From: Patescibacteria group bacterium
GTDB lineage: Bacteria; Patescibacteriota; Patescibacteriia; Patescibacteriales; WJLG01
Length of the DNA stretch: 48,271 nt
Direction: 5' to 3'
Assembly: GCA_028707065.1 (NCBI GenBank)
Contig: JAQTUZ010000010.1
Span: 1 to 48,271, forward strand
Part shown: one piece after another, positions 15,334 through 26,221 of the stretch
Numbering within the stretch: the first letter of the stretch is position 1
Layout: every line of letters begins with the position of its first letter
Notes under the pieces: generated by a model
The model's database searches: none
What the model was told of the DNA's origin: nothing
Seen by the model: the letters and a program-made list of their open reading frames with translations, nothing else
Program-made: the position numbers and the translations under genes

Positions 15334-16212
15334 TCAAGGAACGGATGGAAGAAAGAAATCAACGGCTTGAACGATGATGCCGGATGCGCCGATGCCGCTT
15401 AAGCGAGCGATGATTTTTACCACCTCGCTTTTTCTGATCAGCGCTTCGGCCGCCAACCCTCCGCCGTCAAGCTGGCTCAAAGTCAGGCGCTCGAGCCAGA
15501 ATTTTTCAGCTTCGATTCGGGGGAGATCGGCCGGGTTGAGAATATTGAACTTGAGTAATTTCTTCTCTTCCGCCAAAAAAGCGCCCTGAAGCATTTTCCC
15601 CAACAACCCGACTTGTCTGGTTTTCTCCGGCGACAAATCGGCTTTGGCAATCAAGACTACCGGCGACACGAACAATTCCCTGACAATAACTAAATTATTA
15701 TCCTTAATGCTCTGGCCGCTTTCCACGACGCCGATCCCGTAATCATAGCCGCAGTAAGCAACCAGGGCTTCGGTGCCGCCATAAGAAAATTCCTTTTGCG
15801 CTTTGGTGAAAATCAAATCGGCCGCGTACCGATATTCGGTTTTCACCTTGATCCGTTTTTCATCGATGAATTTTTTCTGTTTGCCGAATAGCGCCACTCT
15901 GGCCGGTGATTTGGACTTGCGCGCAAAAGGCAATTCAACCACGACGCGCAATTCTTTTTCCAAACCCGCCTCCACTACGCAATCCCAGCCGCAGATACCG
16001 ATATCGAGCTCTCCGCTCTTAACTTGTCCCGGTATCTCCTGCGGCCGGAGAAAAATCAATTGGCGCAGAAACGGATTGGACTTTAATCTTACCTTAAACT
16101 TGCGGCCGAAAATTTTCCATAGAAATCCGACTTTCCCGAGCAGCTCCGCCGTTTTAACTTCCAAACTGCCGGTCGGCGCGCCCAGACTGCCCAGCTGGCT
16201 GGTCCTCTTCAT
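15334..16212 (-). CDS. hisG: ATP phosphoribosyltransferase (HisG), long form
   Basis: HisG condenses ATP with PRPP, the first and feedback-inhibited step of histidine synthesis. The 292-residue length fits the long form. The periplasmic-binding-like core shows LRPQEIP (55-61), a GELDIGICGWDCVVE segment (67-81) equivalent to the family's D-x-G-I-x-G-x-D, a GGTEAL phosphate-binding region (145-150) and VVESGQSIKDNNL (163-175), equivalent to the VxTGxTLxxNxL signature. The last ~60 residues (GLAAEALIRKSEVVKIIARLSGIGASGIIV) match the regulatory C-terminal domain. GGGAGG precedes the start by five bases. A histidine-codon leader and terminator lie upstream, which independently supports the assignment. 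No other his gene is nearby. Confidence 0.88.
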   Translation of the reverse strand: MKRTSQLGSLGAPTGSLEVKTAELLGKVGFLWKIFGRKFKVRLKSNPFLRQLIFLRPQEIPGQVKSGELDIGICGWDCVVEAGLEKELRVVVELPFARKSKSPARVALFGKQKKFIDEKRIKVKTEYRYAADLIFTKAQKEFSYGGTEALVAYCGYDYGIGVVESGQSIKDNNLVIVRELFVSPVVLIAKADLSPEKTRQVGLLGKMLQGAFLAEEKKLLKFNILNPADLPRIEAEKFWLERLTLSQLDGGGLAAEALIRKSEVVKIIARLSGIGASGIIVQAVDFFLPSVP

Positions 16213-16241
16213 CCGAACCTCCCTTGTTAATGTTAAAGAAC

Positions 16242-16329
16242 AAAAAACTCCTTCCCGATTGGGAAGGAGTTATATTGAAGGAGGTAAAAAAATATTTTTA
16301 CGCGCTTAAACACAGCTCTTTCCCAATCG
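16242..16329 (-). promoter_or_regulatory. Histidine attenuator: mutually exclusive RNA hairpins
   Basis: On the minus strand region 2 (16316-16329, CGATTGGGAAAGAG) can pair at 13 of 14 positions with region 3 (16256-16269, CTCCTTCCCAATCG) to form an antiterminator. Region 3 can instead pair with region 4 (16248-16256) to make the terminator CTCCTTCCC-AATC-GGGAAGGAG followed by six T (16247-16242). Region 1 (CTCTTT just after the His codons) can pair with the AAAGAG of region 2. This is the classic 1:2, 2:3, 3:4 design. A ribosome stalled at the His codons frees region 2 and favours readthrough into hisG. Confidence 0.85.
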
Positions 16330-16381
16330 AAAAAGAGTGGCCATGATGCATTGAATTGATTGTCAGTATTTCGCTTTTCAT
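16298..16381 (-). CDS. hisL: Histidine leader peptide (27 aa)
   Basis: This short frame runs from ATG (16381) to TAA (16298). The peptide contains M-H-H-G-H-S at positions 11-16: three His codons (CAT CAT GGC CAC) within four, directly before the first arm of the hairpin system. It lies about 12 bases after the -10 box of a strong promoter and upstream of the terminator that precedes hisG. The stop codon falls just after region 2, as required for a completing ribosome to disrupt the antiterminator. The role is transcription control by translation; the peptide itself is probably not functional. Confidence 0.85.
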   Translation of the reverse strand: MKSEILTINSMHHGHSFSIGKELCLSA

Positions 16382-16393
16382 ATTGTTAACACC

Positions 16394-16422
16394 ATAATAG
16401 CACATTTGGAATGGGCTGTCAA
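16394..16422 (-). promoter_or_regulatory. Promoter of the hisL-hisG transcript
   Basis: Perfect TTGACA (16417-16422) and TATTAT (16394-16399) with a 17-base spacer on the minus strand. Confidence 0.88.
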
Positions 16423-23051: not shown

Positions 23052-24209
23052 TTACAGATACGACAGGATCAACTCCCCCATCGCTTTGGTGCCGAGAAGT
23101 ATATCCCCGGTGATATTGGACGTGTAAAGATCAGGTGTTCTGAATCCATCCCTGAGCGAGCAAGTCACTGATGACTCGATCGCCACCGCGCCCTGTTTGG
23201 CGCCGATGTGCCGAAGCATCATTGCTCCGGCCAGGATCCGTCCGAGCGGATTGGCCTCGTCCCTTCCTTTAAGCGTCGGCGCTGTTCCGGCGCCGCTTTC
23301 GAACATTGCCGCGCCGGTATCAGGGTTAATGGCTGACGAACACATCATGCCCATACTCCCGAGAGCGGCCGCCGCGCCGTCCGAGAGGATGTCGCCGTGT
23401 TCATTGCCGCAAGCGATCACCCCGTGCAGTTTGGCCGGCGTGAACAGCAAAGCGTTGGCCGAATCCACATACTGATGGGAAAGCTGTACTTCGGGAAAAT
23501 CCTTTTTCCCGACGGCGGTGACGATCTTGCGCCAGAAATCATAGCGCGCCATCACGTTAGCTTTGTCCACGGAAATCAGCGGCAGATTCTTATCCCGGGC
23601 ATACTTGAACGCCGCCGAGATATACTTATGAATCGACTGCCAGCGATAATAGGAAATGTCAGTGACCATTTCTTCCGTACCCGTAACATCCTTTTTCGCT
23701 TTGATGCCGAGCATGCCGCGCGTTTTCTCGTCGATTTTTTCCGCCAGATCGGCCGTGCCGAAATAGCTGTCCTCGAGCAGAAAACGAATGAAGACCTGTT
23801 CTACTCCCTGTTCCGGAATGGTCTCCGCTTTCACGTTGGCCAGGTGGGCCAAGGCTTTGACGTAGATCATCGGCCGAAAATTGAGGAGCAGCCCCATCTT
23901 TTGCCGCAGAGCCAGCAGGCATCTGGCCTCCGGTTTCATCTCCGGTTTTTCCACGCCGATCGTGCTGTCGAATTTCGGATCACCCACGCCACCGAAAAAG
24001 ATCGTTCCGATCTCGACCGCCCGGTTGAAAGATTCTTGCGGCAGGGTGTCGCCGAATTTTTCGTAGGCATTCCAGCCCATCGGCGTTTCTTCGAAAATAA
24101 TCTCGACGCCGTCTAATCTGGCGGCTTTGATGACGATCGCGCAAGCGGCCGCCATCATTTCCGGACCCGATCCATCGCCGGTTACCAGGGCGATTCTTTT
24201 TTCCCTCAT
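23052..24209 (-). CDS. leuB: 3-isopropylmalate dehydrogenase family (LeuB-like)
   Basis: The family oxidatively decarboxylates 3-isopropylmalate with NAD+. The 385-residue protein shows ALVTGDGSGPE at the start, PEARCLLALRQKMGLLLNFRP (about 93-113, with substrate-binding arginines), a Y149-F in DSYFG, K216 in SVDKANVMARYDFWR, and the metal aspartates in SHQYVDSAN (D239) and GNEHGDILSDGAAA (D263, D267). AGGGAG precedes the start. It follows the leuCD fusion after a 56-base gap containing a GC hairpin without T tail. Related enzymes act on homoisocitrate or methylmalate; with leuCD as partner, leucine synthesis is the simplest reading. leuA is not in the window. Confidence 0.88.
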   Translation of the reverse strand: MREKRIALVTGDGSGPEMMAAACAIVIKAARLDGVEIIFEETPMGWNAYEKFGDTLPQESFNRAVEIGTIFFGGVGDPKFDSTIGVEKPEMKPEARCLLALRQKMGLLLNFRPMIYVKALAHLANVKAETIPEQGVEQVFIRFLLEDSYFGTADLAEKIDEKTRGMLGIKAKKDVTGTEEMVTDISYYRWQSIHKYISAAFKYARDKNLPLISVDKANVMARYDFWRKIVTAVGKKDFPEVQLSHQYVDSANALLFTPAKLHGVIACGNEHGDILSDGAAAALGSMGMMCSSAINPDTGAAMFESGAGTAPTLKGRDEANPLGRILAGAMMLRHIGAKQGAVAIESSVTCSLRDGFRTPDLYTSNITGDILLGTKAMGELILSYL

Positions 24210-24265
24210 GAATTTCTCCCTTAAGTTGAGGCGGCACCCGAAACAGATCCGGGCGCCGCTTGATT

Positions 24266-26221
24266 TTAGAGTTTTCCTTCCCCCACGAGTTCGCTGGCAA
24301 GATTGATCATATAACCGACGCTGCCGCCGTTTCTGATCAGCTCTTTCTGGTAGTCGGAAACGGGAAATTTTGCCCTTGCTTTTGAACCCGACATCGTTAT
24401 ATCCCAGCTTATTTCTCCTTCTTCGAGACAGACCGCGATCTTCGGGGGCCTTTTCTTAAAAAGCTCATCGACCTTTTCTTTCGGCAGAACAACACAAAGA
24501 AGCCCGTTGGCAATCATGTTATTCTCGAAAATGCGGGCAAAACTCGGCGCGATCACGCACCTGATCCCGGCCGCTTCCAAAGCCCATGGCGCGTGCTCTC
24601 TTGATGAGCCGCAGCCGAAATTTTCACCAGCCACCAAAATCCGCGACTGGTAAAGTTTGGGCCGGTCTTTGACCGGAATCACCGCGTCTTCCAGACAATG
24701 CTCGCCGAATTTCGCCTTGTCGGTTTGATTCAAGTATTTGGCCGGAATGATCTGATCAGTATCGACATTATTCTTGGGAAGGTAAAACGCTGTTCCGGAA
24801 AAATCCCCGGCTTTGCCGCTGACAATGCGCGCGCGCAGCTTGGCATAGTCCGGTTTTTCAACCTTTGTTCCGTTCTTCCAACTAGTGGGATGGGCAACGC
24901 CATCGTCCGCCAAAATGCTGTTGGCGACCCTTCCGCAGAAATCATGGTCAGGCTCAGTGATCACTCCCTTGACGGCGGTGATAGCCGCCGTAGCCGGAGA
25001 GGCCAGATGAACCATTCCGTCCCTGCCCATGCGGCCGGGAAAATTGCGATTGGTCGTGGAAACGCACACTTCGCCCGGAGCGATTACTCCGCAGCTCATC
25101 CCGAGACAAGCGCCGCAAGTCGGTCCGGAGACATAACATCCGGCTTTCGCGAATATCTCGATCAAACCCTCTTTGAGCGCCTGTTCATAAATATGCTGGG
25201 TTGCCGGAACCACCACGCAGCGAACTTTGTCAGAAATCATGCCGCCGGACATTTTTATGATGCCGGCCGCCATCCGCAAATCCGAGATTCGCCCGTTGGT
25301 GCAGGAACCGATATAAACCTGATCGACTTTCTTACCCGAGAACCTCGAGACCGCATCCACTTCGCCGGGTGAATACCCGTAGGTAATCGCCGGAAGCAGA
25401 TCGGAGACATCGATATCAATAACACGATAATATTCTGCATCGCTATCGCTATTCAGTTCGAGCATCTCATCGATCGCCTTCCGGGGTGAATTAATTTTTC
25501 TGCTCAAGGCGGGCCAGAGATAATTGATCGTCTTATCATCAACCATCATCATTCCCGAAGTCGCTCCGGCTTCCACGGCCATATTGGCAATGGTCATCCT
25601 CCCGTCCATGCTCATCTCGCTGATGACAATGCCGCCGAATTCCAGCACCGCGTTGGTCGCGCCCTTGACGCCGATCTTGTTGATGAGCGTCAGAATGAGA
25701 TCTTTGGCAAACACGTTCTCCGGCAAGACGCCATTGAAGTTGACGCGAATGACCTTTTGCGGCGGACATATCCAAAGTCCGGTGATAAGCCCGTTCTCCA
25801 CTTCGGTCGTGCCCACACCGGCCGTGAAAGCGCCGAAAGCGCCGTGCGTGCAGGTATGGCTGTCGCCCATGATCCCGATATCGCCCGGGCTGATCCAGCC
25901 TTTTTCCGGAATAACCGCGTGACAGACGCCGTTGCGCCCGACATCAAGAAATTCGATGCCGTGCTCACGACTCCAGTCGCGGGTAATCTTTCCCTGGATG
26001 GCCGAGGCCGTGTCTTTGGCCGGATTGACATGATCGATCATGGCCTTAATCTTGTTCGGATTAAAAACCACGTCAATGCCGCGCTCCCTCATATCAAGAA
26101 TTGCGTTGGGCGTGGTGATTTCATGGCACCAGACCCAGTCCAGCTTAAGCGCCATTCCGCCGTCGGCAAATTTCCTGACCAAATGACGCGCGATAATCTT
26201 GGCAAACATTGTCTTGCCCAT
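24266..26221 (-). CDS. leuCD: Fused 3-isopropylmalate dehydratase, LeuC-LeuD in one chain
   Basis: Isopropylmalate isomerase is normally two bacterial proteins; here a single 651-residue chain carries both. Residues about 8-425 are the aconitase-type large subunit with MGDSHTCTHGAFGAF (118-132) and the 4Fe-4S cysteines C307 (GSCTNGR), C369 and C372 (GPTCGACLG). Residues about 470-645 are the swivel domain with NVDTDQIIPAKYL (485-497) and GCGSSREHAPWAL (536-548). The join near 440-465 is a short linker and the frame is intact, so it is not an assembly break. GGAGGAG precedes the ATG. A TTGACA promoter lies about 100 bases upstream, and leuB is the next gene. Confidence 0.92.
   Translation of the reverse strand: MGKTMFAKIIARHLVRKFADGGMALKLDWVWCHEITTPNAILDMRERGIDVVFNPNKIKAMIDHVNPAKDTASAIQGKITRDWSREHGIEFLDVGRNGVCHAVIPEKGWISPGDIGIMGDSHTCTHGAFGAFTAGVGTTEVENGLITGLWICPPQKVIRVNFNGVLPENVFAKDLILTLINKIGVKGATNAVLEFGGIVISEMSMDGRMTIANMAVEAGATSGMMMVDDKTINYLWPALSRKINSPRKAIDEMLELNSDSDAEYYRVIDIDVSDLLPAITYGYSPGEVDAVSRFSGKKVDQVYIGSCTNGRISDLRMAAGIIKMSGGMISDKVRCVVVPATQHIYEQALKEGLIEIFAKAGCYVSGPTCGACLGMSCGVIAPGEVCVSTTNRNFPGRMGRDGMVHLASPATAAITAVKGVITEPDHDFCGRVANSILADDGVAHPTSWKNGTKVEKPDYAKLRARIVSGKAGDFSGTAFYLPKNNVDTDQIIPAKYLNQTDKAKFGEHCLEDAVIPVKDRPKLYQSRILVAGENFGCGSSREHAPWALEAAGIRCVIAPSFARIFENNMIANGLLCVVLPKEKVDELFKKRPPKIAVCLEEGEISWDITMSGSKARAKFPVSDYQKELIRNGGSVGYMINLASELVGEGKL

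Follow-up and report, generated by a model that had tools for sequence, protein, structure and literature searches.

The window, a stretch of 48,271 nucleotides, is one contig of a Patescibacteria genome of 1.5 Mb that is 95% complete. It carries hisG and a predicted attenuator in front of it, all on the minus strand (to which the coordinates of the leader and of hisG refer throughout), and every element named in an earlier sequence-only reading of this DNA can be located there. A sigma-70-type promoter (16394-16422) is formed by TTGACA at 16422-16417, a 17-nt spacer and TATTAT at 16399-16394, with TG ahead of the -10 box. It matches the consensus at 11 of 12 positions, although the match taken alone is moderate evidence, because the 2.2 kb scanned would be expected to contain 3.1 weaker sites (at least 9/12). 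Judged from the position of the -10 box, transcription would start near 16387. The leader open reading frame, MKSEILTINSMHHGHSFSIGKELCLSA, has 27 codons and a stop (16298-16381, from the ATG at 16381 to the TAA at 16298), and its ATG lies about 6 nt past the predicted start site without a Shine-Dalgarno sequence, an almost leaderless arrangement that is also seen at one relative's locus, L003.

The leader contains the codons CAT CAT GGC CAC (16337-16348), which specify His12, His13, Gly14 and His15 and agree with the leader peptide proposed from the sequence. A GGGAGG Shine-Dalgarno sequence (16218-16223) stands 5 nt ahead of the ATG of hisG (15334-16212; PF01634, 1.1e-17), so that the ribosome site at 16223-16218 and the gene at 16212-15334 follow the leader in the order first described. 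Upstream of the attenuator, on the same strand, lie mscL and a 60-aa open reading frame.

Alternative folds of the leader RNA

Three hairpins can be drawn in the leader. The protector hairpin 1:2, CTCTTTTTC-GATT-GGGAAAGAG (16316-16337, 9 bp including two G-U pairs, -8.7 kcal/mol), pairs 16337-16329 with 16324-16316 directly after the His codons; it was absent from the sequence-only reading and corresponds to the usual protector of three-hairpin attenuators. Strand 2 of the antiterminator (16316-16329) pairs with 16256-16269 at 13 of 14 positions, with one A-C mismatch, just as had been read; the 2:3 duplex has an energy of -17.0 kcal/mol, which is equalled in none of 300 shuffles. The intrinsic terminator, AACTCCTTCCC-AATC-GGGAAGGAGTT followed by TTTT (16242-16271, stem -18.3 kcal/mol), has a stem of 11 bp (16271-16246, loop AATC) if two basal A-U pairs are counted, slightly longer than the 9 bp plus six T reported before and equivalent to it. 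The whole leader folds 6.5 sd below dinucleotide shuffles. Searches of the window leader against Rfam give no match to the His_leader family RF00514, even at E <= 10, and no T-box covariance match.

From these parts, the following course of events would be expected. The RNA would begin at about 16387, and a ribosome would start translating the 27 leader codons very close to the 5' end. If His-tRNA is ample, it would pass His12 and His13 and cover strand 2 while strand 3 is being synthesised, leaving strands 3 and 4 to form the terminator, and transcription would end ahead of hisG. With scarce His-tRNA it would stall at the two adjacent CAT codons and mask strand 1 but not strand 2; the exposed strand 2 would capture strand 3 as the antiterminator, the terminator would not form and hisG would be transcribed.

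Folding the leader, which the sequence-only reading had suggested as a check, predicts both alternative structures, and in a footprint (masking) model, with the ribosome footprint extending to +13 nt, the position of the ribosome sets which of them forms. With the ribosome on His12 or His13, the model gives 0.97-0.98 for 2:3 pairing and 0.01-0.02 for the terminator, and with the ribosome at codon 14 up to about codon 25 the terminator stands at about 0.95. This switch at codon 14 makes the tandem His12 and His13 the decision point and His15 at most auxiliary; in the model, the antiterminator would give way to a completed terminator if the ribosome stalled at His15 only. When the ribosome waits at the stop codon, part of strand 2 becomes available again (2:3 pairing 0.87). 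Actual behaviour depends on kinetics outside the calculation. Ribosome-free RNA at equilibrium favours the long, antiterminated 2:3 fold; unless hairpin 1:2 is the first to form, RNA without a ribosome may therefore be read through by default, and in this the window would differ from the textbook attenuator of E. coli.

Recurrence upstream of hisG in other Patescibacteria

The hisG loci compared here, all oriented, come from class and phylum searches of about 380 genomes, together with STF1_148, a Patescibacteria group bacterium from a scan of named genomes whose HisG is 41% identical to that of the window. The genomes searched measure about 0.5-2 Mb, a size in keeping with CPR bacteria. No hisG was found in the sampled genomes of the same genus, family or order, which makes a comparison among close relatives impossible. 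An intrinsic terminator lies within 1 kb upstream at 26 of the 46 hisG loci with enough upstream sequence, and at 21 of these 26 (18 of them clear-cut) a His-His doublet is found 50-100 nt ahead of the terminator, in a frame that ends soon after [expected number of loci: mean 1.0, maximum 5 in 200 shuffles; z 19]. The doublets next in rank, those of Ile, Val and Ser (z 3.5-4.7), are weakly raised, mostly because CATCAT is read in other frames. The finding named beforehand as fatal to the attenuator, namely related upstream regions that keep neither the His codons nor the alternative stems, is not what we observe, since these distant Patescibacteria keep both.

We could assign the hairpin 1:2, the antiterminator 2:3 and the terminator 3:4 in each relative's locus. 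Two loci with HH in the repressor core (L032, L035) and one with the doublet far upstream (L010) count among the 21 and are excluded from the set of 19 loci on which spacing and co-variation were measured. The first His codon precedes strand 2 by a median of 20 nt, and by 15-29 nt in 18 of the 19 loci, the spacing required for a ribosome stalled there to cover strand 1 and spare strand 2. Strands 2 and 3 co-vary between loci [sum of matched energies -266 kcal/mol, permuted mean -168, sd 12], and none of 100,000 permuted pairings reaches the observed value. We used a permutation test in place of column-wise covariation on an alignment because the spacers do not align. One further locus, L050, was rejected as an attenuator and should be dropped, since the HRHH there is part of a motif conserved at the protein level and the spacing at this locus is atypical; it is still among the 19 loci, and the co-variation total does not depend on it. 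Taken singly, L015, L023, L027, L033 and L044 are weak attenuator loci. The same stretch, GAAAGAGCTGTGTT, is present in strand 2 of both the window and L003, yet in different leader frames, an indication of homology and of selection at the RNA level.

Homology with the others in the phylum is the best explanation of the window attenuator. The sequence-only reading had left open whether the mechanism arose or was kept in this genome; the many homologous attenuators across the phylum favour its having been kept, and an origin in this genome is disfavoured. The sequence parts, the geometry, the phylum-wide conservation and the co-variation support control of hisG by ribosome-mediated transcription attenuation in response to charged tRNA-His, and we make this assignment with high confidence. 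Transcription and translation would proceed as drawn above, and readthrough would be expected to respond to histidine.

TrpR-family genes with histidine codons and their neighbours

At ten hisG loci the His codons lie at the 3' end of the upstream gene. Nine of the ten upstream proteins were scanned and all nine match PF01371, with the His codons just past the domain; the tenth, at L027, is closely similar to that at L023. L050, which counts among the ten loci, probably does not act as a leader. A TrpR-family (HisR-like) repressor gene ends in the sensing His codons at L021, L004, L006, L023, L027, L033, L046, L047 and L025, and tailed repressors with sensing His codons occur at at least 15 loci outside the hisG set. 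A stall in such a tail would also delay synthesis of the repressor. Where no repressor adjoins hisG, as in the window and at L003, the leader has its own promoter.

His-rich tails could instead be metal- or histidine-binding features of the proteins, in which case the repressor-fused loci would not be attenuators; this explanation, which concerns the relatives and not the window, we regard as unlikely. It draws on one TrpR group with a protein-conserved HRHH, mostly without a terminator, which we excluded. However, at L008, L009, L015 and L018 the repressor has no tail and the HH codons are found in a separate small open reading frame between repressor and terminator. An independent sample that started from PF01371, and that overlaps in part with the hisG locus set, points in the same direction: the family is carried by 143 of 380 genomes, and among about 130 genes read, a terminator lies 15-110 nt past the stop in 26 of 34 HH-tailed genes compared with 26 of 102 other TrpR genes (Fisher p 3e-7). 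In addition, strands 2 and 3 co-vary over 33 tailed loci, at a level reached by 0 of 100,000 permutations.

For the window itself, two other explanations have to be weighed against the attenuator, and both appear very improbable. The hairpin might merely terminate transcription of mscL and the 60-aa open reading frame, the His codons and the antiterminator being coincidental. Those genes do lie on the same strand, and terminator-like sites are frequent in the region (9 found, 3.1 expected), but a near-consensus promoter stands between them and the hairpin, and the arrangement recurs at hisG in more than 10 families, with His specificity and co-variation; we consider coincidence the least probable of all. 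Control of the leader by a HisR/TrpR-type protein or a T-box in place of a translating ribosome is hardly more credible. In its favour, relatives often carry a TrpR-family gene ahead of hisG, and the his genes of Firmicutes are under the control of HisR proteins (PMC9413887), but no PF01371 gene is found in this genome (G000) at E <= 1e-6, a T-box is as absent from the Rfam results for the window leader as His_leader is, and neither device accounts for tandem His codons that are in frame and keep a constant spacing to strand 2. Relatives may use both kinds of control, with a repressor working at the promoter alongside the attenuator.

The TrpR group with a protein-conserved HRHHR motif (L050, L121, L142, L144, L161, L167, L171) is probably not a leader, and several of its members precede a ribD-like deaminase gene. 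At L125, 72 nt past the first His codon, a hairpin without a U-tract ends at a likely Shine-Dalgarno sequence (GGGAAGAGAAAGGGGTG) and is possibly a translational, not a transcriptional, version of the device.

Genes other than hisG follow the tailed repressors as well. ARAGORN places tRNA-His right after an HHH-tailed TrpR-family gene and a terminator-like hairpin at three loci (L111:522-598, L115:542-618 and L165:503-578). HisRS follows a tailed repressor at L132 (by Pfam) and at L187 (by sequence), in both cases without a clear terminator, and is probably among the targets of attenuator loci. Tailed repressors are also followed by SLOG-family proteins (L141, L185) and a GNAT acetyltransferase (L139). 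In genome G684 (L067:2606-5817) a TrpR-family repressor, a His leader open reading frame, hisG, hisI and, by eye, an apparent hisS succeed one another in what appears to be an operon. Pfam returns no family for several genes downstream of tailed repressors. Among the proteins of this kind (L098, L100, L125, L149, L152, L177), a stretch resembling LxLFTCSTINS or ITFSCPKA recurs in several, which may form one histidine-regulated family.

The divergent HisG and known histidine attenuators

The description of hisG as a lone, single-gene unit holds in part: the gene is single-copy and outside any his operon, but hisI is present on another contig. We did not detect hisD or hisA/hisF in this genome, which at 95% completeness makes their absence likely, not certain. 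Against the attenuator assignment stands that no pathway can be recognised here for a shortage of histidine to turn on. The genome's match to PF00977 falls short of the cut-off and, by eye, resembles part of another flavoenzyme, e.g. dihydroorotate dehydrogenase. A second attenuator at hisI was considered and rejected; there, CATCAT falls within the terminator loop of the gene before it, and an antiterminator is absent. In a genome of the same genus, hisG, hisD and hisI are all undetected. It is unlikely that the window is a foreign contig in the bin, because the neighbouring aconitase gene has 70% matches in genomes of the same order.

The HisG of the window belongs to the ATP phosphoribosyltransferase family, in its long form with a HisG_C-like end. 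It scores 66.2 bits against TIGR00070, under the curated cut-off of 75.75, and its PRPP motif reads IGVVESGQSI, with Gly in place of Asp (compare DLVSTGATL of E. coli); on these features it does not appear to be the canonical HisG of a complete histidine pathway. In the tree, canonical HisG, including the E. coli protein and nearly all hisD-positive loci, stands apart from a divergent clade (n = 18, support 0.94) that includes the window. The E. coli sequence serves as an outside reference only. Within the window's own subclade (n = 8, support 0.87) the attenuator is found in 8 of 8, and none of the genomes has a detectable hisD. Divergent HisG proteins that have lost the PRPP-motif Asp, encoded in genomes where hisD is not detected, are found at L002, L003, L004, L005, L006, L021, L044 and L046. 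Some, not all, divergent-HisG genomes carry hisI, and G476 and G726 carry both the canonical and the divergent type.

Taking all loci into account, we lean towards a wider interpretation, in which Patescibacteria share an old histidine regulon of cis attenuators. In many lineages the sensing codons would be the C-terminal tail of a HisR-like repressor gene, so that one stall would both open the downstream terminator and delay the repressor. The regulon would include tRNA-His, HisRS and a divergent HisG(-HisI) module that belongs to no complete histidine pathway and may make something other than histidine.

Ribosome-mediated His-codon attenuators are classical in enterobacteria. The enterobacterial his leader (RF00514) has the same tandem-His leader peptide, alternative antiterminator and U-tract terminator ahead of hisG; the window differs from it in giving no Rfam match, in its two plus one His codons in place of a long run, in its near-leaderless start and in its divergent hisG outside a his operon. 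Attenuators with a His-codon leader, terminator and antiterminator have also been predicted through comparative genomics in Firmicutes, namely in the B. cereus group, Peptostreptococcaceae and Erysipelotrichales (PMC9413887), and His-codon leaders of hisS/hisZ have been predicted in bacilli (PMC2965389). The claim of novelty is therefore narrowed: the extension to Patescibacteria stands, but the window is not the first case beyond proteobacteria (PMC9413887, PMC2965389). The Firmicutes attenuators were searched for and reported where HisR regulation is absent (PMC9413887), whereas in Patescibacteria attenuator and HisR-like repressor occur together and are often fused.

In Gram-positive bacteria, his genes are regulated by HisR/YerC, a member of the TrpR family (PMC9413887). 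The patescibacterial repressors share its Pfam family, PF01371, and adjoin his genes in relatives of the window; the window's own genome has none, and in the relatives the end codons of the repressor double as sensing codons, a double use of which we found no description in the literature searched. The WWW motif of Chlamydia YtgCR likewise places amino-acid-sensing codons inside a functional repressor gene, where stalling lowers synthesis of the repressor, which acts in trans (PMC7755916); in Patescibacteria, by contrast, the codons close the repressor gene at its 3' end and would work in cis, on a terminator ahead of the next gene. The leaderless trpL of Sinorhizobium meliloti (PMC7298713) also has its leader open reading frame at or near the RNA 5' end, but it senses Trp, not His, and belongs to an alphaproteobacterium. 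In the open-licence literature searched we found no report of amino-acid attenuators in Patescibacteria/CPR, which is not proof of absence. What we describe is a classical mechanism in a new phylum, with a new repressor-fused form.

Little work has addressed regulation in CPR bacteria, most of which are not cultivable. A phylum-wide His attenuator would show that transcription-translation coupling serves amino-acid sensing in very reduced genomes, and the repressor-fused form would represent a compact design in which a functional gene serves as its own leader peptide. A histidine-starvation switch kept on a divergent hisG without hisD makes the role of partial his pathways in CPR testable.

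Elsewhere in the window, isocitrate/isopropylmalate dehydrogenase-like and aconitase-like genes, identified by eye, adjoin each other at 23052-26221, which is unusual for so small a genome. At the end of the contig (44365-48029), DNA methyltransferase-like, DUF262-like and Vsr-like genes, likewise recognised by eye, perhaps form a restriction-modification or defence island.
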